Shown here one piece after another: positions 21,701 through 62,690 of a stretch of DNA of 64,000 nt (positions within the stretch are counted from its first letter, which is position 1; each line of letters starts with the position of its first letter). The translations under genes and the position numbers were made by a program. The stretch covers positions 3,559,852-3,623,851 of the forward strand of contig ML133420.1 in assembly GCA_003864495.1 (NCBI GenBank), given 5' to 3'. The DNA comes from Nemopilema nomurai (taxonomy: Eukaryota; Cnidaria; Scyphozoa; Rhizostomeae; Rhizostomatidae). The notes below the pieces were generated by a model. That model did no database searches. It was not told the DNA's origin and was given only the letters and a program-made list of their open reading frames with translations.

Positions 21701-24700
21701 TCACTGTATTCCATGTCACTGTATTCCATGTCACTGTATTCCATGTCACTGTATTCCAAGTCACTGTATTCCAAGTCTGTATTCCAAGTCACTGTATTCC
21801 AAGTCACTGTATTCCATGTCACTGTATTCCAAGTCACTGTATTCCATGTCACTGTATTCCATGTCACTGTATTCCAAGTCAATGTATTCCAAGTCTGTAT
21901 TCCAAGTCACTGTATTCCAAGTCACTGTATTCCAAGTCACTGTATTCCATGTCACTGTATTCCAAGTCACTGTATTCCAAGTCACTGTATTCCAAGTCAC
22001 TGTATTCCAAGTCATTGTATTCCAAGTCACTGTATTCCATGTCACTGTATTCCATGTCACTGTATTCCAAGTCACTGTTTTCCAAGTCACTGTATTCCAA
22101 GTCATTGTATTCCAAGTCTGTATTCCAAGTCACTGTATTCCAAGTCATTGTATTCCAATTCACTGTATTCCAATTCACTGTATTCCAAGTCAATGTATTC
22201 CATGTCACTGTATTCCGAGTCACTGTATTCCATGTCACTGTATTCCGAGTCACTGTATTCCAAGTAATTGTATTCCAAGTCTGTATTCCAAGTCACTGTA
22301 TTCCAAGTCACTGTATTCCAAGTCACTGTATTCCAAGTCACTGTATTCCAAGTCAATGTATTCCAAGTCACTGTATTCCAAGTCACTGTATTCCAAGTCA
22401 CTGTTTTCCAAGTCACTGTATTCAAAGTCACTGTATTCCAAGTCACTGTATTCCAAGTCATTGTATTCCAAGTCTGTATTCCAAGTCACTGTATTCCATG
22501 TCACTGTATTCCGAGTCACTGTATTCCAAGTAATTGTATTCCAAGTCTGTATTCCAAGTCACTGTATTCCAAGTCACTGTATTCCAAGTCACTGTATTCC
22601 AAGTCACTGTATTCCAAGTCAATGTATTCCAAGTCACTGTATTCCAAGTCACTGTATTCCAAGTCACTGTTTCCAAGTCACTGTATTCAAAGTCACTGTA
22701 TTCCAAGTCACTGTATTCCAAGTCATTGTATTCCAAGTCTGTATTCCAAGTCACTGTATTCCATGTCACTGTATTCCAAGTCATTGTATTCCATGTCACT
22801 GTATTCCGAGTCACTGTATTCCAAGTAATTGTATTCCAAGTCTGTATTCCAAGTCACTGTATTCCAAGTCACTGTATTCCAAGTCACTGTATTCCAAGTC
22901 ACTGTATTCCAAGTCAATGTATTCCAAGTCACTGTATTCCAAGTCACTGTATTCCAAGTCACTGTTTTCCAAGTCACTGTATTCAAAGTCACTGTATTCC
23001 AAGTCACTGTATTCCAAGTCACTGTATTCCAAGTCACTGTATTCCATGTCACTGTATTCCAAGTCATTGTATTCCATGTCACTGTATTCCGAGTCACTGT
23101 ATTCCAAGTAATTGTATTCCAAGTCTGTATTCCAAGTCACTGTATTCCAAGTCACTGTATTCCAAGTCACTGTATTCCAAGTCACTGTATTCCAAGTCAA
23201 TGTATTCCAAGTCACTGTATTCCAAGTCACTGTATTCCAAGTCACTGTTTCCAAGTCACTGTATTCAAAGTCACTGTATTCCAAGTCACTGTATTCCAAG
23301 TCATTGTATTCCAAGTCTGTATTCCAAGTCACTGTATTCCAAGTCATTGTATTCCAATTCACTGTATTCCAATTCACTGTATTCCAAGTCACTGTATTCC
23401 AAGTCACTGTATTCCAAGTCACTGTTTTCCAAGTCACTGTATTCAAAGTCACTGTATTCCAAGTCACTGTATTCCAAGTCACTGTATTCCAAGTCTGTAT
23501 TCCAAGTCACTGTATTCCAAGTCACTGTATTCCAAGTCATTGTATTCCAATTCACTGTATTCCAATTCACTGTATTCCAAGCCACTGTATTCCAAGTCAC
23601 TGTATTCCAAGTCACTGTTTTCCAAGTCACTGTATTCCAAGTCACTGTATTCCAAGTCACTGTATTCCAAGTCACTGTATTCCAAGTCACTGTATCCCAA
23701 GTCCTTTTTCATTGCTTTAGAGCCAAAATAATTGTTAGCTTCGAACGGTTGATGTTACTTTGTTCAAAGCACTCGTGCTGGTCAACAACGAGAATTTTAT
23801 CGAGCATTGTATGTTGATTTTGAAAGTTAAATTATACCCTCTTTTCTTTATCGATTCGTTTTCTCGTTTAGGGAACTGAGTTTGAAAATCTTGCTGACAC
23901 CGTCCTCGAAGACAGGTTCGAGAGACTTGTCAGCCTGGTCACGTGGACAAGTGAGGATGGCGATCTGCCAATCGCAATGGCGCTGGCAAATGTCATCCAA
24001 TCAGAACAAATGGTATTTGTAATTGACTCATTGATAAGCCTTGATCCATTTCCTTCTTCAAATTATTTATCTCTTCTTTACCTCTCCATGTTTTTCCATT
24101 TTTGTCATTATGATGTTTATATATTCTCCAAATTTTTCCCATAATTGTTGTAGTCTCCAATTATATTTTTAGCTTTTCATTACAGGATGACCTTGCACAA
24201 GTGTATGTCAATGTGTTTGACTCAAAGGGCATGCTTCCTGAGTTGCTGACGAATCTCTTTCGTCAAGAGGTAAATGGCACAATCGTGTATACTCATGCAG
24301 ATTGATAATGTACTCCAGAAGAGACGTGTTACTACCACGGTCTGCATGGAAACACCATTCTTTTACCAGTGCTCTTTCCATCTCTGTTTCCAAAACGTAG
24401 CATTTAGATACATGCCATCAATGCTGGGTCATTTTAAGTAACTTAATGTTAACAAAAGAACTTTCAGGTTCTCTGACGTCACTTCAAAAGCTGGCAAAGG
24501 CACATGGTTTGTTTGCAATAATGTAATGCGCCGTTTGGTGCTTCTGTTGAAACAGGTCGAGTTGGCAGAAGGCATGCAGACGTTGTTCCGGGGCAACAGT
24601 TTGGCAAGCAAGGCGATGGCGTACGCCTTCAAGCTCTACGGCTGCGGATATCTGCAGGACCTTCTGGCCCCTTGTATGGCCATTATGGTCTACGAGAAGG

Positions 24701-27700
24701 ACAAATCGTATGAGGTCGATCCAACAAGGTATGTGCTGATTTTGCACAAGGTTCAAGTCATAGATAGCAGCAGCTGCACTTACAGTTTGTACCGTTTAGC
24801 ATCCATGGCAGTAGTTTCACAAGTAAAGTTCACATGAAAAGGCATGAAGATGCAAAATTCCAACATTTCTTGCTATATCAATCAAAGCAATATCAAAAGG
24901 AAATAGTGTTTGTTTCATTTCAAGAATTAATTGTCATTTCAAGGGTGATGTTTTCTTTTGTTTATAGGATAGAAAATGGCGATGATCTCAAGGCGAACAC
25001 GAGCTCCGTTCTGACTTTGGTGAAGATGCTTGTCAACCAACTTGTTGAAACTGTAGAAAGGTACCATGTCTGAATTGAATGGATTTCATTAAAAAGCCTG
25101 TTAATGTCTCATTGTTTACTCATAGAACCACCCTAATATGTTTACTCGTAGAACCACCCCAATATGTTTACTCATAGAACCAACTTGATACGTTTCTACC
25201 CTTCGTCAAATTGTTTTCTTTCTCTTTCCAGTTTTCCTGAAAAGCTTAAAAGTCTTTGTCACTGCTTGAACAAGGTATTCAAATGTGTGCTTTTTGAACA
25301 GTTGTAATTTACGATAAAGATTGTCCAGCACATTATTGCTGTGGTGCATATGTCTCTGTGCTTTAATTGCTTCATGTCTTATAAAGGGACGTGTTTCCTA
25401 GCATTCTCTCTACGGTTCAAAATGTTAATTTCTACTTTTGCATTGTCATCATCATACTGCTGAATGCCATGATACCTTGTTATTCGCCTTGTAAGATCAC
25501 CTGTGCTAGCCAATCATTGTTAATTATGGAGACGATTTCGCATGGTTTCGAAGGCAGCCCCTGCATTGCATCATCTGTCAAATCACTTTTCATTGCAGGC
25601 CGTCCAGGAGCGATTTCCTTCTGACACTTACGTTGCCGTTTCAAGCGCTGTCTTCCTCAGATTCTTAAACCCAGCAATAGGTACTGACGTCATTCACATT
25701 CACTGCCACCATTCAAAGGCTTTAGAGAAAATAAGTAGCATCCTTTTGATTAACTGTGTTCATAAAGAGATGCAAGGTTATTGCGAGCATTGTATGTCCT
25801 GCCAGAAAAGGGATCAACTGTTGTAATGGGTAATTATGAATGGGAACTTATGAGGGCGATAAAGTTCTGTATCTCTTTGTGACTCATTTTTGGCTGATGT
25901 TCTCACACGGGGTCCGCATTTGCTTTTCAGTTTCCCCCCATACGTTTGGATTGCTGGAGCAGCCACCGTCGGATAAGATGCGCAGAGGACTCCGGTACAT
26001 TTCCAAGGTATGCTGCACTTGAACACAACAGTAGATTTTCACTAAACGAATTACCAAGGGCTGATGTTGCCAAGGCGCCTGCTCAGTTGCGCAGTCAGAC
26101 TCACTTGAGTGTTCTATAACATTTTCGCAACCATCGATTCCACTCCAAAAGATATTTTTAACATAGTATTTCAAAGTAAATTATTGGACCTGAATGTCGA
26201 TTTGATTATTTACATCATACATTTGCAGATTTTGCAAAATTTAGCGAACCGAATACTGTTCACAAAGGAGCCACATATGGAAGTCTTCGATGAGTTTTTG
26301 AAAGAAAATTTTGAAAAGGTTCATGGGTGAGAAACTTTTTTTGTGGCTTTGTATATGCAAGTTTAAGGTATTTACCATATTTCAAACTATTGGAATTTAT
26401 AGAGTTATTGATGTCGCTGTGTTTACTGATTTTGGTTGGCATGGCAAAGTGTGTAACATAGTTGTTGCTTCTTGATTATCAATCTTACGTTGATTGGCGT
26501 CACAGGTATTGAAAAACTGGATCTTTGATTTTGTGTGCAGATTTTTTGCTGCTCTCTCGGCCAATTCCCGGGAAAGCAAGGTCCAAGTTGACATCGAATA
26601 CTCCATGTTCAACGACTATGACATTGCTGCTCTTCACAAGCTGTTGTGGGTGAACCAAGAAAACATTGGACAGTACTTGTCAGTAAACAGGTTCGTTGAG
26701 AGTTTGCTTCTCAAAATTCATTACAGCCCAATGTATTCAACGAGGCAGGCCAGTTGGACGTCGTTGCCTTTAGCCTCTCTTTGGGGTGAGCCACTCACTG
26801 AACGGCTAAACGGAATAGTTGCAGCTCTTAGAGGATGCTAGGTTGTAGGGAGCCTTGGGCCGTGATGTTAATGTTGATCTTGTTTACTTCCGCAGAGATT
26901 ACAAATCAGTTGGCAGAGGCCCTTTTGAAAGAGTAGTCACCTTGCTTGCACACTTAGGACCTCCAGACCACCAGCCTTCAAAGCTGCAAAAGGGAACTTT
27001 GTGAGTAATACTTGGCAGTACTTTCTTTCTGGTGCTTGTAGCATCGACGATTAACTTTTGCATTTGAATGCATAGCTGAAACGCTTTAACAACAGAATTT
27101 GTTCACGAAGGCTTTCCTTTGAGGAGACACCTGGCAGTGAGAGGAATTTCATTATTTCTGCCTGTTTATTTTACAACCTAATGGACTTCTTTTGCTGAAC
27201 AATTTCATAACATTTTCACACTAGATGGCATCGAACTAGCAGCATGGGTTCCAAATTTAGAGAATTCATGATGAAACACGCGGGACAGAACAACGATGAA
27301 CTGCAGGCAATCAAGTCGTTGCAACTGTTCTACCAGGTAAATACTTTCATTTAAGTTTTCGTAGCTCTTAGTTTCATATTTTAATGTCGAACCATTGTTG
27401 ATCTCCAATCTCACATCTTTTATTTGCTCGTAGGAGGGAAAGTCGAAAGCTGGGAATCCTGTTTTCTACTTCATAGCAAGGCGATACAGGTTTGTTCTTT
27501 GAACCCTTTTTGAAACTGCACTCAAGGCTTCTTTTTGCGATGACTTCATCGCAGTCCGAGGCTTTCCGAATGTTCGATTTACCTAGTATCGTAGAATGTG
27601 CATCGGAAGAGTAGAGCTTTTTTCCCTTTAATTATTAGTATTTGTGTTTTACCTGACCTACCTCACATTCCTTTACTCAGAGCGGACCAAATAAATGACG

Positions 27701-30700
27701 AAATCCTGATCTACCACGTTTTACTAACACTGCAGCCCGTCTACGGCCAGTCCTGGGAGTTGATTTTCGACTTCACGCACACTGGACCGGATAACAGATT
27801 CAAGGTGCTGTCTACTTTTCCTTTTACTAATGTATGCCGTAGTGCAAGTAGTTTCTTATGTTTTGAAGGGGTATCGAAAGGAAATTGTCAGCATATATCT
27901 GATTTTTAGCTATCTTTTTAGTAAGGCAAGAAGATAGGATGACGAAAAATGGGGAACATTCAGTTGGCCGAATTTCCGATAGTTTTGTCTATTAGAATTA
28001 GCCTGAATTAATAGTTGCCATTTTACATTTCGTGTAATTGTTAGTATTGATGCAAGCACGCATCCGATGTTTCAACTCTGTTTATGGACTGTGTCATTCA
28101 ATGAGTTTGTTTCGCAATTCTCAATGGCTTGGTGCTGATTAAACCTCGAATCGCCAAGTGACTGATTTGGTCCTCTTTCAGCCGGAGACCCTTGCGAAGG
28201 CGTTCGCTGTGCTCCCAGAAGCTCAGTTCAAGAGCCTCTCTCTCATTTACGTCTACAACATCAACAGCAGTGTGCGACAGTTTGTCAAGATTCATGAAAG
28301 GACACTTGCTCCCTTCAAGGTACGTATCTTTTGGTACTCTTAGTGTTAGCTGTGGCGCAAATTGCTTATTTCTACAACTTGTTCCATTCTCTCTTTTTCG
28401 ATCGCACGTTGCCAAGTGCAGGTCTGCTAAAGTAATTTTTTCTTCTTTCCAGGGAAAGTCAAATGTTCTTCTGATCGACTCTTTGAATCGCTTTTACGAC
28501 CATTTGACGTGTGATGAACTCAAGCTTCCAAACTCTACAACATCTTTAGAAGACGATGTAAAAGTAGGTTTTTTTAAATTTTGTAATCAGGGCTGGCAAA
28601 TGCAGATGGTCAAGAATTGAATTAGAGCGCTGCGCTGCATGTCCCCAAACATGTCTCTGGATTGTTCTTAGAATTCATGAAAGTGGCAAATATGTAGCTA
28701 TTTGTATCAGAAAACGTCTCCCGGGATAAAGATTGCTGAAAGTCTTGAAAAAATGATCATTAACTGCATCAGATTTCGAAAATATGAGTTCTAGAGTTTT
28801 GTACACTGTTTAAGAAACTGGATTACTTAAGTTTTGTTTGGATTGAGGCCTGAGTGTGCCAGGGGCCCCTTTACATATCACTCACTATATCTTTCATGAA
28901 CTCAGCACAGCAAACTGAAAATGTTTTCTCATGTGTGATTAGGGACCCTCTAATTTTTCGGCCAGTTTAAAAGGCAAGTCGTAAAAATGCAGACACTGAC
29001 ATTTTTTTTGCTTCTTTTTTGAAGGTTTTCTCGGCCCAACGCATCAACAAGGGAACGGTCTTGATCAAGGTAATTATCCAGCCTCTCTTTGATGTACAGT
29101 TTGTCGTTATGCCAATCATTCGGAGTGCGATTGGACAAAAAAGATAGGAATACTCGAGGGAGCTTCTTTCTGGGAGCAGGAATTGTCAGTTAGATAAATG
29201 TGGCGTAATTTTCACATGCAGTGCATTTAAGAATCACATGGATAGACTGTCTCTCCAAACATCTACATTCTTTTGTCAGTTATGTTCTTTAAGAGTGGTG
29301 GAGTGGGCAAACAAATAATTTTTTGATGATTTCCTGTATATTTGGTTGTGGTAAGTTCTTGGATTTTGCGGCCATGATAACTCGTATTTCCCTTTCGCAA
29401 TGACTTTCTCAGGTCGGGCCTAGTTCGGTGCAGATACAAGCAGCAGAGAAGGTCAAGGTTCTAGGCTACACTTGTGTTGTGAACGATGTTTTCTATGCTT
29501 CAGAAATCGAGCAGGTATGATGTTTCAACGGTGCCATATCTTCATGCTTTTTTCAGCTGGTATAAGTAATAGTTTAAGCCATCAACATTTCATTTTCGGC
29601 ATTATTCATTTTCGGCATTATTCATTTTCGGCATTATTTCATTTTCTGCTTTAGTGTTTCATTATAAATGCAAATGTATTTCTGAACGTAACACCAACTG
29701 TTAAATGCACTGCCTTGTCACTTTTTGTAGGGATCAATGCACTTTTAACCAGGTGTTGTGCAACTAATTCGGATTTCGATGGCTGTAAAGAACGCTCTTT
29801 GCATTCTTCTTTTTCGCGATCTTCGTTGTTTCTCAACGGGTAAATGTCTCGTCTAGGCCTATTTTCAAGAGGACCTCTTAGAATTGCACTTCTCCGTCGG
29901 CGGTCCCGGCTTCCGGTTCATTAGCGCCAGTGCGGAACAGATCACCGTCGCTGTCAATCGTGTCATGTCGAGATGGAAACTTTCTCAGCCGGTAAGACAT
30001 TAAGTCTCCAATATGTTTGGGTGAAGTTTTTTCATTTTTTTCTAAATAAGTGGCTATGCATGATAAATTAGATCTGGAGAGCACTTTTTTAACTTTCTGC
30101 GAACCGATAAGAAAATTTTGAATTGATGTTATTTCACTCTTTCACGGCAGGGGTCAAAAACATCCGCAGCTGAAAAGAAAATTCGTCCTAAAGATGTTCC
30201 CGGCACACTTCTTAACATGGTTTGGCTTTTGTTTTTAGCCAATTATGTCTACTTTTTGTTTTTCCTTCATTCATGGTCTCTATTGAAGTTAGTGGTTAGT
30301 GTTAAAAAAGAGTCACTGAGTGCAAAACAAGCTTGAAATACTCTATTTTCATTTATTTAGGCCCTGTTAAACTTAGGCAGCAAGGACCCAAGTCTGCGTT
30401 TAGTGGCGTATAATCTACTCTGTGCATTGACCGCTACTTTCAACCTGCACGTAGAGGAGCGACTTCTAGAGGCAAGAGGTGGGTAGACCAGTCACACCAT
30501 GCACTAATCTTGCTTCTGACGTCATAAAACTTGCCCAAAAGTATTGCAATGATGCGTATTTGGAAGGCTGCACATTCCTTTGGCGTCTTCTTAATTATAA
30601 GTTGTCGCTTGTTCATGTAAGCAATGCAAGTAGTACAGGATATCGAAGTACAGTTTTCAGTTGCCCCATTGCTATGCCACATCGTCATACCTGCAGGTTA

Positions 30701-33700
30701 ATTTTCTTTTTCTGGTGCAGGACTGTGCATCCCAGCCAATAACACAATGTTTATTAAAAGCATAAGTGAGCAACTGGCGAAGCGGGAGCCGAACATGACT
30801 CTAGAGGTAGGTGGCGCAAGTTTTGCAAACCGGGTCTCTTTGTCTGACTGTTCTGCTTTCATGCCGCAAGGGTGTAGTTCCCAACTATTTGGCAATTTAA
30901 GATTCGATTCCTGTCGAAGTGGTACCGAGTCGCGATTGGAAAGTAAAGGTGAGGATTGTCCTGATTTGCCAGCGTTGTTTCAGAAACAGCTCCCGAGGTC
31001 TGAAGGCGTGAGTCAACAAGTCCCCACCATAACATTATTCTTATTTTTGTCTGATGTTTTTAACGGGAGCCTTGACTTTCTCCCACTTTTATGTGAGAGT
31101 AATTTATTATTTGGTATCTACCTACGCATAGCTGTTTTTTTTTCATTTTTTGCAGTTTTTGGATGAATGCATTAATGGCTTTAGCTTATCCGACTTCGAA
31201 CTCAAGCACCTTTGTTTAGAATATATGGCTCCTTGGCTTCCCAACCTAACGAGGTGTGTTCTAATTCAACTTCAAAGCAACGCTTACCGCTTTCTAGGTA
31301 CAGCCCTTCGTTACACAATGGGCTGCATCTCGTTTAGATAGCGTGTAAGACATACTATTTTGTTTTTATTCGAAAAGTTTTATTCTTCTTTAGGAGTGTT
31401 GCCGAGACTTTTCCATCCTGAAAATTCACTTTTCATCCTGTAAATTCACTCTTTCATCCTGTAAATTCACTTTTCATCCTGAAAATTCACTTTTCATCCT
31501 GAAAATTCACTTTTCATCCTGTAAATTCACTTTTTCATTGTTTTCTAACATGCTTACCTGTTTTTACTGAACAACCTCGTGTCTCAAAGCCTGAGCGTTC
31601 CTATATGTTTTGCATCCTTGCAGGTTTTGCAAGTGTGTTTCCGATGATCCTTCTCGGACAAAACTCTGCCAGATTTTGGATAAACTCATTCAAATGACAA
31701 TAAAGGAGCGGCAGGCGAGTTTCTACCTTTTCGACGATCTCTTCGACGTTTTCCACCTTTTGACCTCGCTACCTGGTCTCTAACCCTTGCTAAATAAGGT
31801 CGAAGTGTATGACTTTGTTTCAATTTGTAATTTAGTCGCGGTAAGGCCATGAGCCATGTGTTCCTTATTTGAAGAATGACGTTTCTAGTGTCGGAGATCT
31901 GAGGACTGTTGATTGAATCGAATGTCACCAATCCACATTGCAGATGAATCCGTCAATTCAGGCCAAGGTTTGGGGCAATATTGGAAAGCTTCCGGAGCTG
32001 CTTGATGTTGTGCTAGACAGTTTTATCAAGGTGTGCACCTCCCTACCAAATGCACTTTCAATATACAATACGCGATTCAATAATGTATAAATGAAACCTG
32101 GGTAATGATCTTGAGCATATCTTGTGCCCATGCAATGACTCTGAATGCCATTGTTCTACTGTTGTTTCTGCAACAACGTATTTTAAGCTGAATTTGGCCT
32201 GGCAATTTATAGTCACGTTCGTTTGTAAATCTGTTTCGAGTCGGTGATCAGCACTGTAGGCCTCTATGGTGAACAGCAATTCCTTTTCTGTGATAATACC
32301 TTAGTTATGATTGCAATCGATGTTGAGACTTCGATTAATCTGATAAGCTTTGATTTAGTTATGCGTCTGAAGTACCATAGTGCGGGCCTGCCCAGCGTTA
32401 TAAATTCCTTATTCTGCTCCGTGTTAATTGAGGCCTCGCCTTCTCTTCACAAGACAAGTGCTACGGGCGGCCTTGGTTCTCTGAAGGCAGAAGTTATGGC
32501 CGATACCGCCGTGGCTCTGGCCGCTGCCAACGTGCCCTTGGTTTCCAGCAAAATCATAAAGCGACTAAACACAGTAAGTTTTGTTTGCTTTGGCAACTCT
32601 TCTAGTTATTCGGTTTAGGCTCGACGTTACTTGTCAGAATAAAACCACATTTGTAGATCAGTCAGTCAAGATTAATCGCCTTTAGGTTGTTGCAGTATTT
32701 CTTTGCTGGCCATGCCTAGGGATGAATGGAACGTGTCAATGCAGTGTAAAGTGTTTGTTCCCCAAGATGCCTACAAGCTCTACTAAGTCACATTGGCTTT
32801 TCACCCACAAACCTTGACCTTTCAGGTGCTGGGCAGAACGAGCATGTCGCCCACTGGCAGCCTGGAGCGGCACTTGATGTGGGACGACATTGCCATCCTA
32901 GCCAGATACCTCCTCATGCTGTCCTTCAACAACTGCCTCGATGGTAATGCCTTTGCGAAACATTTCGTTGCCGACATTTCTGACTACAGGTCTCCCAATG
33001 ACGTCATAAAGGTCTGAAGTCGTGGTGTCATAAAATGATACCTCAAGTGCTGAGACTGATTCACTTTGCGGCCAGCTTCATTTTTTAAGACTGTCTATTA
33101 ACGACGAGAACGTATAAGCTTGGTCGCATCAGTTTTTAAATGCTTTGTTTTGTACCATTACCCGTTATCTCTTTTGAAAGTGTGTTAATTTGTTCTCAGA
33201 GTTATGAACGAAATAAGCATTTAAACTCGTTACTTTTTGTTTTTCTACTTTAACAAATGTCATGCGCTTAGTCCTTATGTACTTTGTTTGAAAACAGTTG
33301 CGAATCACCTGCCAGAAATCTTCCACGTGATCACCCTGCTCGTGTCCACTGGGCCTCTTTCTCTGAAAGCCTCAATTCACGGGCTGGTCATCAATTCACT
33401 CCAATCGCTGCTCACCTGCTCTGGAATCAACTTCAAAGGTGTGAAACTGGACTATTCATTTTTTCTTTTGGCAGTAGTTATAGGGACGGAAATTGTTAGT
33501 TATGCTTCCTCCGGCGGCATTTATAAACGCTGGTTGTCGATTGAAAGACCTGGGAAAATTAAAAGGCACGAAGTTCGGGAGTTCCCATTTCACATTTAAT
33601 AAAATCATTTTAATCTAATAAGGTCGTTCTCACTATTCTTTAATCGATTCTCAATGCCTTTTTTGAAGGGAGAACACAGAGGCTGCTGAAAGCAAGACTT

Positions 33701-36700
33701 GAGGATTTCTCAGAGCAAAAGTACTATCTTCTATTTGGTAAGTGCTAGTGATCTTTCTCAGAGCAAAAGTACTATCTTCTATTTGGTAAGTGCTAGTGAT
33801 CTTTCTCAGAGCAAAAGTACTATCTTCTATTTGGTAAGTGCTAGTGATCTTTCTCAGAGCAAAAGTACTATCTTCTATTTGGTAAGTGCTAGTGATCTTT
33901 CTCAGAGCAAAAGTACTATCTTCTATTTGGTAAGTGCTAGTGATCTTTCTCAGAGCAAAAGTACTATCTTCTATTTGGTAAGTGCTAGTGATCTTTCTCA
34001 GAGCAAAAGTACTATCTTCTATTTGGTAAGTGCTAGTGATCTTTCTCAGAGCAAAAGTACTATCTTCTATTTGGTAAGTGCTAGTGATCTTTCTCAGAGC
34101 AAAAGTACTATCTTCTATTTGGTAAGTGCTAGTGATCTTTCTCAGAGCAAAAGTACTATCTTCTATTTGGTAAGTGCTAGTGATCTTTCTCAGAGCAAAA
34201 GTACTATCTTCTATTTGGTAAGTGCTAGTGATCTTTCTCAGAGCAAAAGTACTATCTTCTATTTGGTAAGTGCTAGTGATCTTTCTCAGAGCAAAAGTAC
34301 TATCTTCTATTTGGTAAGTGCTAGTGATCTTTCTTTCAAAGTAACCGTAACCTGAATTGAAATGTTGAAAGCTGTTGTTGTTGTTTTTAGTTGCCACAAT
34401 TACGTAGTTATTCGCACCCTCGCAGCGTCCCTTCTGTTTGGTGACTTCCCAAACATTCGATCAAGTCAATGAGTCAACGCAAGCGGTCAGAACGGCCACG
34501 CAGCTCCATATTTTACTGGCTTAATGTTATTTGGAATGTCTTGATAGAGTACATTACTTTGTTTGATTTTTGTTTTAAGAACTTTATATTTTCATATTTT
34601 ACATCCATTTATGCCTCATGGTTATGGTTGTTTTAGACAAGGTTTTTGTGAGTTTGGTTAGTTACGTGTGAGCTTGGTTAGCTAGGTGTTTGATAATTGG
34701 CTGTATTACCTGTATCAAATATACTGGCCGTATGCAATGTAACAAGCCTTTATAATCATCATTTTATAAAGGTATTTCGAAAGTGAAATCAGCCCCTGCG
34801 AAAGCGTTTCAGTCGTCATTTGGTCGCAATCGAAGTCGGACCTTCAATACTGAATCAGATGATGAAGGAATCTCCATGTCAGCCCTGGAAACAATAGTGG
34901 AATCGCTCCTTGAAATCATGGAGGTAGTTCTCTTCATATTCATCTCTTTTGGGTCATAGAAGCGGGTCACGTTCGTCTTAGATGTGCCGTGATGCACCAC
35001 AATATCCTTCATCTAGTCGCATTTAGCTGTTTGCCAATTCTTCGTCAAGGGCAGCCTAGTATTGGCATTCAAAGCCTCCAGGCAGCCGGTCTGCTTAGTC
35101 CACGACTTGCGTTGAAGGTATTTTGGAAGGCTGCTTTTCAACGTTGTTTTTAACTTGAATTTATTTCCGTTTGTCAGGCTTGTGCCATGGATATTCCAAA
35201 CTGCAACTGGGCCAGGCGATGGCACGAGCTGGCACTAGGGTAAGTGACGATAAGGATGCATTGTTGGGGCGCAAAATAGAGTTAGTTCGTTGGGGTGCAA
35301 TAGAGTTAGTTCGTTGGGGCGCAATAGAGTTAGTTCGTTGATGTGCTTTGAGTTTATTCGTTGAGGCCTTGGTTTGTGCCGTGACTTCTGTGCAGCAGCA
35401 AGCGGCGGATGCTTCAAAAGGTCTCTACGGCCATCAACGCCTTCGTTGGCGATTCATTGGCAGAGGTTTACATGCTTCTCGTTTCTCGCGTTTGTTTATT
35501 GCCTGCCTTATCAATCACAATGTTTTTCCTGTTGTGTTTATACACTGACGACGTGATATCTTCTTCATATCATCCCTCGGTGAAATTCACATTGCAAAAC
35601 AATAATTGCATGTATATTTCATGCTCTTTTCAGATTTGCATACACCCACAATCCGGCACTGCAGTCCCGCTCGATAATTGTCCTTGGTTGTATAAGCAGA
35701 GAAGTCGACGATACGTTTGTTAGAAGTTTGCTCCAGGTTCTGGTGAAGGTACTGCGCTTTGATTTACACATGTCGAATGTTGGTTCACTTGTTTTCCATA
35801 AATAAAGAGAGGTTTTTCTTTCAATTCTTCCCAACCTTTCTTCTCGTTGATCTTCTCTTCTCAGACGTTCTCTTTCATCGCGCCTCTCAAATGACAATCT
35901 ATTTTCACGACTCGACTTCGCAACATTGCGCCGATGACACGCCATTCTAAGGTTGGAAGCCCTTTTGTCTTGCAGGCTGTTGGAGTTTATAATGAGAATC
36001 GCCTGATTGAGTCCGTCATCATGTGTTTGGCCAAATTGCAGCCACTTTTACCGCAGGTTCGTTTCGCCTCTTAATTGAGTTACACCTTGTATTGGTGTAG
36101 AATACCAAATTGAATCATACCTTTCCATGATTCCTAATTCGATTTTTGAAGAAAACGTCAAGGATAAAAGATAAAGTTCATTAGTCTGTTTTCTAACTCG
36201 AATTTCGTTCACAGGCCTCAAGATATCACAGGGGACTCTTCTGGATAGCCGTTGGGATCTTACAGGTTAGTTAAGGCCCCGTTTTCGAGCAGGGCGCCCT
36301 CCTTGTCTTTGAGTATCACATTTTACTTGAAGCCATGATGTTTTTCGGCACGCTCTTTGGGCTCGCTCATTGAGATCCGTCTATTTGAGATCCGGCTAAT
36401 GCTGCACCCGGGCGATGTACATTCGTGTACCCTCTAGAGTTTCCTCTCACTTTACTTTGCTGTTGTCTTGATTTTGAGGCCTTTTCATCGTAGCTGGCGG
36501 AGCTGACCTTGTTCCCCTGTGGCCTCATTCTACTGGAAAGGTCCATTATGACCCTAGATAACCACGGAGCTTTCGATAAGCAGGTATGTACTCTTACATT
36601 GCGGCCTAAATGCAGTATGCCTGCCCTTTCATCAGAAGCCGATTAACTGTTACTTGCACTAACGCATTGCCGCACTTTGTGGCTCTTTCTGTTTGGTGAC

Positions 36701-39700
36701 ATTTCCTGACGAGGCGCTAAGAATTGATATCTATTACAAGTGTATTTTCTTGGGTAGATTGCTCTGGTGTGAGCAAGTTTTCACATGCATGTCCTTTGCT
36801 GTGACAACCGGTTGCATCTGTTCCTCTTCCTTTCAACAGAGTGTTAGCGAGGTACTGATGGCTGTCAGGGCCAATGGAACACTCGACTGGGTCTGTAAGC
36901 AAATGGACCACGTCGTCGGCCTCAGCTTCAACACGGACTTCAATTTCGCTCTAGCTACTCACGTCTTGAAAGGTAAATATGAGACCGGCATCAGCTGTTC
37001 TGACACATATCTCATCGACTTTTTCAACAACCAGACTGCGTCGTACAATGGGGTTACCAACCTGATTCTCGTTGTTCTTTGCTTTAGGACTGAGGCACCC
37101 TTGGGCAAAGACCAAGTCGTTGACAGTTCGAATATTGAACTTATTACTAGATTCATGCAGAAAACGAAAGAATTGGTGAGTATTTGAGAATTGGCGAGAA
37201 AAGGTGTGCCCTCCCGTCCACTCTTTTCTATACCTGATCAAATGGCAATTTATTAGACTCATTGCTGTCAAGGTTCAATAATTTTTAGCAACGATTTCAA
37301 AGTCGATCGACTTGTGTGAACCTCGATATTGTTTTAGCATGAATGTTGTTTACAACGTAAATTAACATTATTGCCTGTTTAAAAAATGAATCTTTATTCA
37401 GCCTCCTTTTCATTCTAACCTCGGTACTGCTAGAGACCTGAGTCCGTCCATGCCCTTGGTGTGTAAATATCCATCATATATGAGTTGCATTTTCTCTTTT
37501 CCAGCAAAGACAAGTTCGTCGTCAGCAAGGAGACTGTTCCGTACTTGGCTGGTTTGTATCTTATCCTTGAACTCTTTTCGCTTCTTTGGCATAATTTGCA
37601 AGTTGCCCACTTGGATTGGCCTTTGCCGTTGCACTCTACCACGCTGCTTTGCCCCTTATTCCCTTCAGCTTGTCATTTGTACAGATTGGTAGCGAGTAAG
37701 CCGATTTCCCTTGCTGTAGGTCTACTTCCGATTTCAAACGAAGCAAGGACCCGTCTTCACGCTAGCAGCCGGGCATCAACCTACTTCAAGATGATTTCCA
37801 AGAACCCACTCTGCAGCTCTATGGAAGACATCGCCGCTGCTTGCACACCAGATATTTCGATCGTCATATCGCCCCCGGCGGAAATAACAGACCGCCTCGA
37901 TGAGTTCGTGTGGCCCTCGGATTGCCACAATTTGCTGCTCGATCCTGCTATCGTGAATGATAATGAATCGAAGGTTCTTCTGCTTGTTTTGCTGGTAAGA
38001 ATGGCACTCAGCTAACTTTTGTCCCCTATACCTCATACTTCATGAAACTTTCTTTCAAGGCATCTTAGATCGGTCTTCTAATGATAGTTATCTTTTATGT
38101 GGATATATGACGAGAAATACTCCCATAATTGTTTTTTTAGCAGTTATCTTTTCTCTGTCCTGTTGTGAACTACTAGTTGGCTGGTAAGCCAACAGTAGAC
38201 CTCAAACTTTGCCTCGCCTTAGGGGCTGTTCAATAATTACGACACGCTAAATTTGGGTTTTTAGAACCACCCATCCCCCCTCGTCACGCTCCGTCACGGT
38301 TTAATGTGAGATCCCTTTGCGTGACGTCACTCTAGGCAGAGACAACCTCCCTCCCCTCTTAATGATACACCTTGCACATGTACAGTATGTGATGCATTTT
38401 TATTTTATTTTGAAACGATATCTACAAGGGGTATCGTGCGACCTCTACCCAAGTACCTGAATACCAAATAATTCCGCAAAATTTAAAAACAATGGTTTAA
38501 AGACCGAAAAACTGAGTAGAACCAAAGCTTTTCTAAGAAATTCGAATGTTGTTTTCGGCAGTAACATACTTGTTTAACAATCCAGAAAGCAAAAAATTTG
38601 GTTTTTAGCCAATCACAGTACTTGCTTTCGATTCAAACCACCAGGCAACAGGTACAAACCAGGCAAATTCTGTGACACTTTAGTGCCCTACGTTTTTGCT
38701 ACAGGAGTAAAAGTTGTAGTTGAGCGAGAGGTCTGGATTGGGAAGAGGTATACAACTGTGATGCGAGTCTTAGTGGCTGGGTTGGAGATTTTAATTTGAA
38801 GATTGTTCAATGAGGCTCACAAATAAAATTGGTTTACCTTTATTCGAAGAGTTTTTCCAAAGCGAAAGGATGGTGCCTTTTCGAGTTGAAGCAGACTTAC
38901 TTTCGTGCTTTCATGTTTGGCTTGAGATTTTAGCTGAAGGAAAGCTTTGAATTCCTTTCTATTGAATTCTTTATAACAGCAAGAAATCAGAAAATTATCA
39001 GAACTACAACATAAAATCAGACTAGATATAAATTCAGCAAAGGATAGCACAACTAAAGAAACACTGAGGAAAGACAGAAACAAAATACTCAACACAATAC
39101 ACAAACTGAAGAAAGAAGACACAGAAAGAAACTTAACCCAACAAATAGAAGACATTGAAAAGACAGGAGATGAAACCAAGAAAATGTTCAAAGCAATAAA
39201 ATACCTGAAAATGGAAGGAACAAAGAAGACCAAACTTCAAGTAAACACAGCAGATGGAAAAACAACTTCAACAACAAGAAAAATTGAGGAAGTCACAAAT
39301 CACTTCAAACAATGCTTCTACAATGAAAACTTAGGCCCAGATCAAAATAAACAAGAAACTATAAAACCAGAGAAAATAACCAAACCATTCACAACAGAAG
39401 AAATTCAAAAAGCAATCAAGAAACTGAAGAATAACAAGGCTGCAGGTTGTGACAACATCATTGCAGAACAACTAAAACACAGTCCAGAAATTGTAGCAGA
39501 GGAAATAGCAACTATCTTCAATGACATGGTAAGAACAGGAAAATATCCAGAAGAAATCAAAAAAGGGATACTAATTCCACTCCAAAAGCCAGGTAAAGAA
39601 AAAGGCCCAACTGTAAACCTAAGACCCATTATGCTTATGACTATGCTCAGAAAAACATTAGCTTTATGCATGTTAGAAAGAATAAACCCTAGAATTCAGG

Positions 39701-42700
39701 AGAACATACCAATAAGTCAAGCAGCATACAGACAGGGACGTAGTACCACAGAGCAAGTGCAAGCATTCAAACTATTGGCAGAGAAAGCTATCACCACAGA
39801 AAACACAGAGTACACTATAACACTAATAGACATGAGCAAAGCATTCGACACTGTGAACAGGAAGACCTTGATTGAAGACCTAAAACATATAGTAAATAAA
39901 GAAGAACTGTACATACTATCAAAGATGATCAATGACACAGAAATCCAAGTGAAAATAGATGGAGAAGTTGGACAGCAATTCCGAACAACTGAAGGGTAGC
40001 TCAAGGCGAAGGACTAAGCCCCATTCTATTTACTCTATACCTAGCCAAGGCCTTCAAAGAAGACAGCACAACCTACCCAAGTCAAGATCACAACTACACA
40101 AGCAATGCACCAGAAATACATCAACTAGGCTTTGAGATGGAAGAGCAGTATGCAGATGATTGTGGTTGGATACATGAAAATGCAGAAAAAGGAAAACAGA
40201 AAATAGAGAAAACCATCACCAGGCTAAAAGACAGAAATCTGAATGTGAACAATGACAAGACTGAGATATTCAAGATTAAGAGAGGTGAGACAACTGATTG
40301 GAAAAAATGCAAAATCCTAGGAAGCTACCTTGACACAGAAACTGACTATGAAAACAGAAGAAGATTGACAATAACCGCGATGTCAAAACTGCAACATATT
40401 TGGACAAAAGGAAAAAGCATCACCAAAAAAAGATACTATCAAGTTTAGTAGAGCCAATCTTCATGTACAATGCTGAGCTATGGAACGTCACCACCACTCT
40501 AGAAAAGAAAATAGCAGGCTTCCAACATCGAATTCTGAGATGGATGCTAGGAGTAAAATGGCAAGAAAAGAAAAAGAACACAGAAATTGACAAGATTGCT
40601 GGTATGACATCATGGGTGGACAAAATCAAAGAAAAACGAAGAAGATGGACGGGTCACATGCTGAGACTAGATGATGAAACACCTGTAAAGAAGGCTTTAA
40701 GAGAAGCTAGAAGACCTGGAAGAGCCCATAGGGGATGAAAAAAGTACATATGGATAACACAAACAATGACCAAAGACTTTAAAGATATGCAGTTAGATGG
40801 ATGGAATGAAGCTGAAAGAGCGGTGCAGGATCGAGTGTTGTGGCGAAGAACAGTCAAACGAAGCCTGAGAAACTAACTTTTTTCACTATTTGATGTACAC
40901 AATGTTGTAAATACAACGGAATGTGTGATTATATATATATAACAGCAGCGTGTTTGTTCTCACAAGCAAACCTTTCTTTGTATGCTGTAACGAAGTCTTG
41001 ATGCAGCTGCGAAATCTTTTGGCCGAGCTCATCTGGAGAATCTGGAGTCGTCATTTTTCACTGCCTAAAACTGTACGACATTCAAATGTTCAAAGCAAAA
41101 CAAAACGAAAAAGTATTTTCCACATCCAAATTACTGTAATTCGAAACTTATGTTTTTGAAACATTTGAATTCGAAATGTGAATGTTTTGAAACATTTTTA
41201 GTAAAGCACTCTTTGCATGACATAAAAACGGAAAACAACGTTTTTATTGACAAATCCAAATGAATCTTTATTTCAATTCTTTTTATACCGCGACGCCATG
41301 GACTTGAAATAAGTACTACCCGTCCCCCTCGTTCATCGTCACGCTGTGTCACGAAAAATCTGAAGAACTACCAACCCCCCTAGCGTGCCGTAATTATTGA
41401 ACGTAATTATTGAACGTAATTATTATACAAGATAAGTTTTGGCATTGTATATGGGCTAAGTTGTGTGCGTGTACTGTCTCCTAATTACATGACGTCATCT
41501 CTCGTCCCAGGCCACACTTACTGAGTTCACAACAGACGATGCCGAGTTGCGTGTCCTCTACGGCGTTCTGGCTGAAGCAAGTATTCTTTTCCCTGATGTT
41601 TTTCCAGTCACGTGAGTACCACCCAAGTCTTGTGCCTTCATTGATTATGCGTTTGCTGAAATATTCTAGCGTTTACTGGTGTGTAAATTATTGTGGCAAA
41701 ATGGTTTATGCAACAGAAAGAGAGAGTTAAAAGATGGGATGAAGTGAGGGAAGCCATTGGTTGGCTTGGTGCGTCCTTGGGTGCTGAAAGGTCCCTTCGA
41801 CCGATGAGGCAGGAGATGCCATTTTATTTTCCAGCCGTGGCCGATTAAAGCTCTTCATGTGCGGGGTTTGTCTTACTGTATTCAACATTTCACTCTAGGT
41901 TTACAATCCTGAATAGGAAATTTTGTAATGTCCTGAGTCACAGTGAGGACCCAACAACTTTGGCCGCCGTGCACACCATTGTCCAATCAACTTCTGCCAG
42001 CTCCGGCAAGGAATCCAACTTCGACTTGGATTACCTCAGTTGTGAGTCGAGTAACCTTTTTTGCCACCTCTTTTCCAATCTTTCGCCACTTTGCTATTTT
42101 TGAAAAGCGGATAACGAATCGAACCAGTGATGATTCTACCTCAAAAATATGACGTTTTCGCGCGCTTTCCCTCTTTCAGTCGATATTTGATTCACCAGTC
42201 CATACCTGCTGATATTTATCTCGTCTCAAATTTTGTTTCAGCGTGTAATTTTTCCGGCTTGCACTCATTCTTGGGGCCCTTTCCTGAGGTAAACAATCCT
42301 TAACATGTTTTTTATTGTCATTTGCGTATATAGATAAACGACGTACCATTGAACAACTCGGAGTATGATTTTTTTTCATGTTCAGCTTAGCAAGTTTTAG
42401 CTTCTCTCTTACGTTTAGCCATCCTAGTAATTTCTAACGTTTGGATTACATTACGTAGAGGTTACACGTCCATACTTTGAGAAATTGCCAATGTTTTGAA
42501 ATTGACCTGAGCCAGAGAACCTTCTTAAACCGTAGGCCCATAAGCAAGCGATTGCCCCGCACATGTTCTCGCGGCTGATCAACGCGTTCGTGGAAGAGTA
42601 CCGGCCTAGCTCGTTTTCGCCCGAGATGCGCTCGAACTCGGCCCTGTTTTTCCAGCCGAATAAAGTGCGCGACGACGGCGCCATTGTCGCAAGCAGCTCC

Positions 42701-42835
42701 TCCCTCAGCGCCATTCCCAGCCTTAGCGAGATGCGTCGCAGCTCGGCCTTCCAGCGGACCGGCTCCCTGAAGCCTTCGCAGCGGACAAGAACGAGCAAAA
42801 AGGACAGCGAAAGTAGTGGGCCCGTCAAGAGGTGA
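6846..42835 (+). CDS. NF1: Neurofibromin, Ras GTPase-activating protein (complete, 72 coding exons)
   Basis: Complete spliced gene, 7914 coding bases, 2637 residues plus stop (human about 2818-2839). Neurofibromin speeds GTP hydrolysis by Ras at membranes. Order: N-terminal HEAT-like region (about 1-1121), GAP-related domain (about 1122-1470), Sec14-PH lipid-binding module (about 1470-1744), C-terminal HEAT-like region (about 1745-2637). The start is the ATG at 6846, whose 21-codon exon contains EWVHIALKRF, matching the human first exon (20 codons before the same intron position). Exons 2 and 3 are 144 and 84 bp, as I recall for human NF1. Every junction is GT-AG except three GC-AG introns (donors at 10722, 18145 and 31715). 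Phases agree across all 71 introns, with no frameshift. Exon coordinates are given in the seven block entries that follow. Confidence 0.95.
7864..8401. mobile_element. Probable MITE in NF1 intron 1
   Basis: A perfect 18-bp terminal inverted repeat, TTTAAAGGGGCTGGGTCA at 7864-7881 and its reverse complement at 8384-8401, bounds about 538 bp. No transposase frame is present, so this looks like a non-autonomous DNA transposon. A target duplication is not clear; GGAATTT occurs near both ends but not flush with them. Confidence 0.65.
12799..12847. repeat. GAT/GAC trinucleotide microsatellite
   Basis: Run of GAT units with scattered GAC interruptions in NF1 intron 12, just upstream of the exon 13 polypyrimidine tract. 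Confidence 0.95.
12865..16919 (+). CDS. NF1: NF1 exons 13-20 (residues 420-716)
   Basis: Exons: 12865-12936, 13227-13289, 13878-13994, 14383-14496, 14935-15014, 15362-15485, 16117-16176, 16659-16919. Landmarks: RWWPKVEVLYS (exon 13), ELWNPEAPIATFWEI (exon 17), QQVTTGRAALQKRVLAILR (exon 20), all aligning with human neurofibromin in order. The segment that in vertebrates carries the Cys/Ser-rich PKA-phosphorylated region is shorter here. Intron 18 contains a 17-bp minisatellite and intron 12 a GAT microsatellite. Confidence 0.9.
15620..15880. repeat. 17-bp minisatellite in NF1 intron 18
   Basis: About 15 head-to-tail copies of a 17-bp unit, consensus AATACCCCATTAGTTTA, with copies degrading at both ends. 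Confidence 0.95.
17175..21179 (+). CDS. NF1: NF1 exons 21-30, up to the GAP domain (residues 717-1121)
   Basis: Exons: 17175-17330, 17565-17641, 18043-18144, 18470-18638, 19064-19203, 19368-19440, 19676-19815, 20018-20131, 20566-20738, 21109-21179. Landmarks: EWTNMTGFLCALGG (exon 22), GVDLSPALFKSFF (exon 24), DLAFRQEMKFRNKLVDYITEWV (split in exon 27), PLQPENVESDITEAKS (exon 28), ANIDSGLMHSIG (exon 29), GYHEDPQTRSTFMEVL (exon 30). Exon 23 uses a GC donor (ACAG/GCGAGA). The exon 28 5' splice site is tandemly duplicated 22 bp downstream. The region precedes the GAP domain and overlaps the tubulin-binding segment described for human NF1. Confidence 0.91.
19546..19610. repeat. Two-copy direct repeat in NF1 intron 26
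   Basis: A unit with core TACTATCCATAGACCTTTGA occurs twice in tandem (about 29-bp spacing) between NF1 exons 26 and 27. Confidence 0.8.
20114..20170 (+). repeat. 22-bp tandem duplication spanning NF1 exon 28 5' splice site
   Basis: Two full 22-bp units (20114-20135 and 20136-20157) and a 13-bp partial third unit. Unit 1 consists of the last 18 bases of exon 28 plus the GTAA of its donor, so a second complete AAA/GTAAGT donor lies 22 bp downstream. Use of the second donor would add 22 bases and shift the frame. Confidence 0.95.
21251..23703. repeat. 15-bp minisatellite (about 2.45 kb) in NF1 intron 30
   Basis: About 160 copies of a 15-bp unit, consensus TATTCCAAGTCACTG, with recurring variants (CCATGTCAC, CCAAGTCAAT, CCGAGTCAC, CCAATTCAC) and periodic shortened units that read CCAAGTCTG. 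The variants recur in the same order, giving a higher-order repeat. The marker AAGTAATTG followed by CCAAGTCTG recurs near 22265, 22530, 22825 and 23108 (265-295 bp apart). Because 15 is divisible by three, all frames look open on both strands; these are not genes. It fills most of the 2.7-kb intron before the GAP domain. Confidence 0.97.
23872..27000 (+). CDS. NF1: NF1 exons 31-40: Ras GAP-related domain (residues about 1122-1470)
   Basis: Exons: 23872-24012, 24186-24269, 24556-24728, 24968-25060, 25232-25274, 25599-25680, 25931-26007, 26229-26326, 26541-26690, 26896-27000. This is the catalytic RasGAP fold. The arginine-finger loop TLFRGNSLASK is intact (Arg at about residue 1208, exon 33), as is the structural motif FLRFLNPAI (exon 36) that contacts switch regions, and LANRILFTKEPHM (exon 38). 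Because finger and FLR motif are both present, GAP activity is expected. I see no counterpart of the vertebrate alternative 21-residue insertion, but did not search introns exhaustively. The preceding intron (21180-23871) is almost entirely minisatellite. Confidence 0.95.
25114..25191. repeat. 27-bp, three-copy repeat in NF1 intron 34
   Basis: Three tandem copies of a unit with core GTTTACTCATAGAACCACC, differing at one or two bases, between exons 34 and 35. Confidence 0.9.
27225..29991 (+). CDS. NF1: NF1 exons 41-48: Sec14-PH module (residues about 1470-1744)
   Basis: Exons: 27225-27336, 27434-27489, 27681-27804, 28182-28319, 28453-28563, 29025-29069, 29413-29514, 29857-29991. It corresponds to the bipartite Sec14-homology and PH-like lipid-binding module following the GAP domain. 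Landmarks: GNPVFYFIARRYR (exon 42), INDEILIYHVLLTLQPVYG (split description, exon 43), DFTHTGPDNRFK (exon 43), SLIYVYNINSSVRQ (exon 44) and VFYASEIEQ (exon 47), each aligned with human. No key feature appears lost. Confidence 0.93.
29589..29648. repeat. 16- to 17-bp short repeat in NF1 intron 47
   Basis: Three to four tandem copies of a unit with core CATTTTCGGCATTATT. Confidence 0.85.
30151..37994 (+). CDS. NF1: NF1 exons 49-68: C-terminal HEAT-like region (residues 1745-2441)
   Basis: Exons: 30151-30219, 30361-30478, 30721-30806, 31156-31253, 31624-31714, 31944-32030, 32454-32573, 32826-32943, 33298-33438, 33669-33737, 34772-34923, 35178-35239, 35634-35748, 35976-36056, 36215-36265, 36494-36583, 36840-36972, 37088-37175, 37505-37551, 37720-37994. 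Landmarks: IRPKDVPGTLLN, GLCIPANNT, LKHLCLEYMAPWL, GGLGSLKAEVMADTAVAL, HLMWDDIAILARY, STGPLSLKAS, CKQMDHVVGLSFN. The exon 53 donor is CAG/GCGAGT. Exon 58 ends at the first of 13 tandem copies of its own 5' splice site. Exon 68 has a poorly conserved stretch before DPAIVNDNESKVLLLVLL, where human has its Ser-rich linker. Confidence 0.92.
31412..31539. repeat. 21-bp minisatellite in NF1 intron 52
   Basis: About six copies of a 21-bp unit with consensus TTTTCATCCTGTAAATTCAC (T/A variation at one position), between exons 52 and 53. Confidence 0.93.
33708..34331 (+). repeat. 48-bp x 13 perfect tandem repeat of the NF1 exon 58 5' splice junction
   Basis: Thirteen apparently identical 48-bp units. 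Copy 1 is the last 30 bases of NF1 exon 58 (33708-33737, coding SEQKYYLLF) plus the first 18 bases of intron 58. Each unit therefore repeats exon end, an optimal donor (TTTG/GTAAGT) and a pyrimidine-rich TCTTTCTCAG that could act as a 3' splice site. Donors start at 33738 and every 48 bp to 34314. In the NF1 frame each extra unit contains TAG, so reading past the first donor truncates the protein. A unit spliced from its own TTCTCAG to its own donor would instead be a 24-nt exon in the right phase, adding EQKYYLLF. Long open frames on both strands here are repeat artefacts. Confidence 0.97.
35262..35345. repeat. 24-bp, three-copy repeat in NF1 intron 60
   Basis: Three tandem copies of a unit with core CAATAGAGTTAGTTCGTTGG between exons 60 and 61. 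Confidence 0.9.
38982..40937 (+). mobile_element. 5'-truncated non-LTR retrotransposon (LINE), nested
   Basis: A-rich plus-strand element of about 1.96 kb, flanked by an exact 10-bp direct repeat TATAACAGCA (38972-38981 and 40938-40947), taken as the target-site duplication. It encodes the end of ORF2: linker and reverse transcriptase, then the C-terminal region with ILGSYLDTETD and RRRWTGHMLRLDD. Endonuclease and ORF1 are missing, as is usual after 5' truncation. It ends in a short TA-rich tail. The clade is not assigned; RTE, CR1 or Jockey-like groups are all possible. Confidence 0.85.
39184..40738 (+). pseudogene. Broken reverse transcriptase ORF2 of the LINE
   Basis: Reverse transcriptase fragment with recognisable blocks: NNKAAGCDNI, NLRPIMLMTMLRKTLA, AAYRQGRSTTEQ, LIDMSKAFDTVNR, AQGEGLSPILFTLYL and the catalytic YADD. 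The frame breaks after FRTTEG near 39996 (one base short in a GGG run) and again at a seven-A run near 40427, after which SLVEPIFMYNAELW continues in another frame. Both breaks are single-base losses in homopolymers. They may be real decay or consensus error. The copy lacks its 5' part, so it is dead either way. Confidence 0.85.
41511..42835 (+). CDS. NF1: NF1 exons 69-72: C-terminus (residues 2442-2637)
   Basis: Exons: 41511-41611, 41899-42041, 42242-42288, 42536-42835 (TGA at 42833-42835). Landmarks: LYGVLAEASILFPDVFPV (exon 69), FSGLHSFLGPFPE (exon 71), RLINAFVEEYRP (exon 72). The last exon ends in a Ser/Arg-rich tail (SSSSLSAIPSLSEMRRSS, then RTGSLKPSQRTRTSKK) that resembles phospho-regulated C-termini but is only loosely like the human tail. 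A 3.5-kb intron containing nested transposons separates exons 68 and 69. Confidence 0.93.
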
Positions 42836-62586: not shown

Positions 62587-62690
62587 TAGGGCCATGCAAT
62601 CTTAGGGGGCCACGCAACATTAGGGGGCCATGCAATCTTAGGGGGCCATGCAACATTAGGGGGCCATGCAATCTTAGGGGGCCATGCAAC
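62587..62690. repeat. 18-bp minisatellite
   Basis: About six copies of an 18-bp unit (consensus TTAGGGGGCCATGCAATC); the last bases alternate between ATC and ACA, giving a 36-bp higher-order period. Confidence 0.93.

Follow-up and report, generated by a model that had tools for sequence, protein, structure and literature searches.

A thirteen-copy minisatellite across an exon–intron boundary of a medusozoan neurofibromin gene, probably young and near-neutral

The 64,000-nt stretch presented above (hereafter the window) carries a gene for neurofibromin (NF1), and one exon–intron boundary of this gene is spanned by a tandem array of thirteen identical 48-bp copies. We consider it probable that this medusozoan array is a mirage minisatellite, young and near-neutral. 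A mirage is a minisatellite that spans an exon–intron boundary, as described in the available parts of reports on the lancelet Adh3, troponin C and globin genes BflGb6 and BflGb9 (PMC3087553, PMC3902484). In the mechanism that we propose, a 48-bp segment between an exonic and an intronic TTTCT would have been duplicated in tandem across the boundary, and then expanded and homogenized to 13 copies. The copy furthest upstream still forms the true exon end, so joining the first donor to the acceptor ending at 34771 would keep the mRNA as before, and growth of the repeat would have been unhindered. Splicing would mostly ignore the other 12 donors and the acceptor-like sites, and transcripts from a later donor would carry TAG-TGA and be truncated or decayed. 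The effect on neurofibromin itself is probably none. The features on which this account draws are as follows:

33706..34334, plus strand: array of 13 tandem 48-bp copies and a further 5 bp (TTTCT); exact period run, unique in the assembly.
33706..33710, plus strand: left-hand TTTCT microhomology, where the duplicated unit begins in the exon, from the sequence.
34330..34334, plus strand: TTTCT at the intronic end of the array (right microhomology), from the sequence.
8804..42835, plus strand: neurofibromin gene as modelled by spliced alignment; stop TGA 42833-42835, start uncertain.
33669..33737, plus strand: neurofibromin exon, 56 of 70 in the model, its last 32 nt being the exonic part of unit 1; PDB 8edo_A match and spliced alignment.
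33738..34771, plus strand: phase 1 intron that contains the array, with the first donor GTAAGT at 33738 and the acceptor end at 34771; spliced alignment and splice scoring.
34772..34923, plus strand: next neurofibromin exon, beginning GISKVKSAPAKAF; PDB 8edo_A match and spliced alignment.
33752..33785, plus strand: first candidate microexon together with the acceptor tract before it (GATCTTTCTCAG; 24 nt at 33762-33785), recurring every 48 bp to unit 13; potential only.

Structure and origin of the array

Positions 33706-34334 form an exact period-48 run of 629 bp (13 × 48 + 5) with 0 mismatches, in keeping with the perfect copies reported by an earlier, sequence-only reading of this DNA, and thirteen exact 48-bp copies are not a product of chance. 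The 48-mer was counted 13 times in the 212.9-Mb, 226-contig assembly, every time inside the array, and was not found in any other contig of the 212.9 Mb searched, the array being represented by a single haplotype; the reversed pattern, used as the control for this search, gave 0 matches. Among the 12 Tandem Repeats Finder rows with at least 3 copies in the window, the array alone has 100% matches. The thirteen GTAAGT donors, previously said to stand 48 bp apart, were located at 33738+48k (k = 0-12), and the array acceptors end at 33761+48k (k = 0-11). The same reading had placed an acceptor-like tract before the copied exon piece in every unit; TCTTTCTCAG does lie directly 5' of that piece in units 2-13, but the true exon copy reads GGATTTCTCAG instead.

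The start of the unit lies in the exon (GGA-TTTCT-CAGAG), the array gives way to unique intron at GATC-TTTCT-TTCAAAG, and collapsing the array leaves a single 48-bp unit flanked by two copies of TTTCT. Since TTTCT stood at both ends of the ancestral unit, slippage is a likely starter, and the array probably began by slippage or by microhomology-mediated tandem duplication. With 0 differences over the 576 bp to which the extra copies add up, divergence is at most ~0.5% per site, assuming independent copies, and the perfect identity would reflect recent expansion, continuing homogenization or consensus building during assembly.

It is worth weighing whether the copy number or the perfect identity is partly an assembly product, i.e. 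a collapsed, expanded or consensus-polished repeat, which we regard as very improbable. Such an origin would fit the lack of differences among the 12 extra copies, a feature not shared by the 11 other rows of at least 3 copies, and also apparent haplotype duplicates in the assembly (contigs C5/C107 and C27/C37) and the misassembly of a lancelet mirage in a draft genome, mentioned in the accessible part of one report (PMC3087553). Against it stand the absence of any N in the window, the shortness of 629 bp relative to long reads, if the assembly was built from such reads, and the existence of a second, few-copy boundary repeat in the same gene. As a separate observation, the dynein heavy-chain matches on C5/C107 and on C27/C37 have equal profile ranges and near-equal scores, and suggest uncollapsed haplotypes.

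Gene model and identity

The gene was modelled by spliced alignment with P0001 as the guide, the closest protein among the matches listed (77% identity, covering 68% of the query), and with an aligner that does not report introns shorter than 30 nt. The model comprises 70 exons, 69 introns and 2591 open codons, the last of which ends at 42832 and is followed by TGA; its first exon and first intron are doubtful. The modelled introns measure at least 97 nt (n = 69) and the exons 43-275 nt (n = 68). The local exons match human neurofibromin (PDB 8edo_A, E 3.1e-34), with exon 33669-33737 ending in RLLKARLEDFSEQKYYLLF, a match to the human protein, and GISKVKSAPAKAF continuing in exon 34772-34923. 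This match, the 77% identity to P0001 and the open codons identify the gene as neurofibromin, which looks functional, with an apparently intact reading frame. The array overlaps exon 33669-33737 and that exon's donor and is, in that sense, a mirage. The earlier description of an amplified NF1 exon 58 junction stood as to gene, boundary and amplification, but not as to the number, which is a matter of numbering only (exon 56 of 70 in our model).

The top neurofibromin matches among those listed were two EukProt proteins and one JGI protein, at 77, 68 and 64% identity, and the first named species were corals and a sea anemone at 50-51%. No near-identical (same-species) protein was present among the 120 of 836 and 120 of 149 matches listed in the two protein searches. 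In a maximum-likelihood tree built from dynein heavy chain 12 by a quick method, the genome pairs with a EukProt sequence (Shimodaira–Hasegawa-like approximate likelihood-ratio test, SH-aLRT, 100), and that pair joins Hydra, Hydractinia and Clytia (SH-aLRT 100), with three anthozoans outside. The animal is not a vertebrate; by this placement, it is a medusozoan cnidarian that falls outside the three hydrozoans sampled, either a true, box or stalked jellyfish or a hydrozoan of early branching. A sponge origin, to which the neurofibromin matches had first pointed, was rejected on this tree. A search for COX1 found no match in the assembly.

Splice signals in the array

Weight matrices were built from 64 of the 69 introns, omitting the doubtful first intron, the array intron and three with GC donors. 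The array donor scores 8.48 bits, a value exceeded by 19 of the 64 real donors and reached by 0.4% of 1579 intronic GTs. The array acceptor reaches 5.17 bits, which is exceeded by 52 of the 64 real acceptors, the remaining 12 being lower, and equalled or surpassed by 7% of 1222 intronic AGs. The acceptor-like site was made by the juxtaposition of units, the corresponding TTTCTCAG in the true exon scoring -0.55 as an acceptor. The natural acceptor of the array intron, at 4.92 bits, is no better than the array acceptor, and four other, unused AGs of the same intron outscore both. Accordingly, the acceptor matrix alone is no predictor of use, and scores near 5 say little about it.

Branch-like signals were sought as YTNAY, a generic motif with no training on this animal. 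None was found within 100 nt upstream of the inner array acceptors, while with its A at -48 to -17 the motif is present in 45 of 67 other introns and absent from 22; the natural acceptor of the array intron has one weak case, TTTAT at -20.

Reading consequences

The normal protein results when donor 1 is joined to the acceptor ending at 34771. Splicing of a unit at its own AG and GT yields a 24-nt piece that enters and leaves in phase 1 and inserts EQKYYLLF in frame, and translation bore out this part of the sequence-only reading. The predicted in-frame stop on read-through was also recovered, as the translated later-donor and unspliced-unit cases run into GKC-TAG-TGA. Adjacent units are separated by 24 nt, which had been considered too short for an intron; this agrees with shortest confidently modelled introns of 97 nt in neurofibromin and of 90, 118 and 118 nt in the three best-guided dynein genes, given the aligner's lower limit of 30 nt. 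Steps of two units (72-nt introns) permit 233 productive paths, including the one with zero inclusions, with a maximum of 6 inclusions; steps of three units (120-nt introns) leave 60 paths and a maximum of 4.

These figures bear on the possibility that non-adjacent units are spliced in as microexons, adding at least one EQKYYLLF to neurofibromin. Frame and phase fit, the path counts allow it, and the array and natural acceptors score alike. However, the array lacks YTNAY, the 24-nt piece is smaller than the smallest of the 68 modelled exons (43 nt), 72-nt introns would be shorter than the shortest modelled one (97 nt), and the presence of four unused AGs that outscore the natural acceptor means that scores of about 5 bits predict little. 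Further, the stretch that would receive the insert is conserved across the fetched animals. Homologues were taken from the two protein searches as the best 120 of 836 plus the best 120 of 149; the core motif was found in 164 of these 240, and a tandem YLLF insert in 0 of 240. Overall, inclusion of units as microexons appears very unlikely, and the earlier suggestion that they act as such or tune NF1 splicing was left unsupported by the acceptor ranking, the missing YTNAY, the homologues and the lancelet arrays reported as harmless (see below). Its alternative, that the array is neutral, seems the likeliest.

An extended version, to which we give the least credence, would make the array a length-variable microexon dispenser. 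Non-adjacent units would then give neurofibromins with 0-6 extra EQKYYLLF in a conserved region, across individuals or cells, and array length would set the mix of productive and decayed transcripts. If this were true, array length might also shift in the soma, as is reported of Adh3 in lancelets.

Alternatively, the extra donors could act as a sink, or poison, whereby later-donor transcripts gain TAG-TGA and decay, and neurofibromin output falls with a dependence on copy number. Thirteen equal, strong donors are compatible with this, as are the stop-containing translations and the sizes of the exons that donors 2 and 3 would give (117 and 165 nt), which lie inside the gene's exon range. Conversely, a cost to expression would select against the array, and lancelet mirages are reported, in the parts of that account available, without aberrant mRNAs (PMC3902484). 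A sink is unlikely, in our estimate, though less so than the use of units as microexons.

Several points nonetheless weigh against near-neutrality. The extra donors are strong (8.48 bits) and the array acceptor matches the natural one (5.17 and 4.92 bits), so that the layout of a microexon, an in-phase 24-nt piece between an acceptor and a donor, is present. A unit length of 48 together with a phase-matched 24-nt piece could look designed. The absence of YTNAY from the array is not decisive, because the motif is also missing from 22 of 67 real introns. Lastly, the human multi-donor minisatellite of IFI6 is cited as interfering with splicing in the available part of one paper (PMC3618361).

Frequency of boundary repeats and donor arrays

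A second boundary-spanning repeat was found in the same gene by Tandem Repeats Finder and by the duplication count:

20112..20170, plus strand: repeat of 22 bp × 2.7 over donor 20132, with a second GTAAGT at 20154.

Use of donor 20154 instead of 20132 would lead to an immediate in-frame TAA. Tandem duplications at splice sites were counted only where the exact run reached 12 nt. In neurofibromin, they occurred at 2/68 donors, 0/68 acceptors, 26/408 intron-interior points and 4/402 exon-interior points. For comparison, 9 of 39 requested dynein gene regions (160 kb) were examined, from which 192 of 291 modelled introns were kept; the 99 excluded were weakly aligned, non-GT or shorter than 80 nt, those of 30-61 nt in weakly guided models were taken as alignment errors, and one gene (C89) contributed just 2. 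This sample gave one donor in 192, 0/192 acceptors and 26/768 intron-interior points. The sole donor case (C122, GTCTAT) comes from a gene with a guide of 39% identity and is doubtful. Tandem Repeats Finder, applied to all 291 dynein introns, returned that donor and one acceptor (C22), 3 bp beyond which the array ends. The notion of donors as hot spots of tandem repeats is not supported (2/68 versus 26/408 in neurofibromin, 1/192 versus 26/768 in the dyneins): donors are no richer in such repeats than the intron interior, and boundary repeats are uncommon. We infer that they are tolerated at exon ends because the outermost copy preserves the true boundary.

Arrays of three GTAAGT with gaps of 10-40 nt were matched 497 times on one strand and 455 times on the other genome-wide, against 999 and 1009 for the reversed pattern. 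Triple-GTAAGT arrays are thus no rarity in a genome so rich in repeats, but they occur at only about half the frequency of the control, so that selection for donor arrays is not supported.

Comparison with known systems

Like the lancelet mirages, the array has its outer copy at the true boundary. Unlike them, it lies in another phylum and another gene, and consists of 13 identical 48-bp donor-boundary copies, each with an acceptor-like tract. According to the accessible parts of the lancelet reports, units there measure 10-72 bp in Adh3 and 150-160 bp in the globins, BflGb6 has haplotypes with 6 and 3 units, and PGBD5 repeats have been likened to mirages; those in Adh, troponin C, the globins and PGBD5 are described as harmless to splicing (PMC3087553, PMC3902484). 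No cnidarian mirage was found in the open-licence literature searched, in which the two lancelet reports alone bear that name. With the array, boundary-spanning mirages would now extend to a cnidarian. The human IFI6 (G1P3, 6-16) minisatellite reportedly supplies multiple splice donor sites, by the title of Turri et al. 1995, i.e. several donors in one transcript; our array is likewise multi-donor, as read from its sequence. In the Rogers model, introns are gained by tandem duplication of proto-splice sites, with cases in Drosophila and potato outlined in the available portions of two papers (PMC2891723, PMC4974935). As in that model, so far as those portions describe it, tandem duplication across a splice signal creates acceptor–donor pairs; here, in contrast, the boundary of an existing intron was duplicated, and the array is known at the DNA level. 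It may serve as a natural test case for donor choice by the spliceosome, with 13 identical donors spaced at 48 nt, and as a possible starting point for exon or intron birth.

Other features of the gene and its flanks

Within neurofibromin, a minisatellite of 15-bp units (21253-23703; 2.4 kb, 165 copies, 92% matches) occupies most of intron 21180-23871, and RVT_1 reverse transcriptase fragments of a retrotransposon, in two frames, lie at 38977-40448 within intron 37995-41510. At 1632-2330, 5' of neurofibromin, an open reading frame that encodes a double-stranded RNA binding motif (PF00035) probably belongs to a neighbouring gene. On the 3' side, minisatellites are found at 49928-50245 (29 bp × 11) and at 62589-62690 (18/36-bp units).
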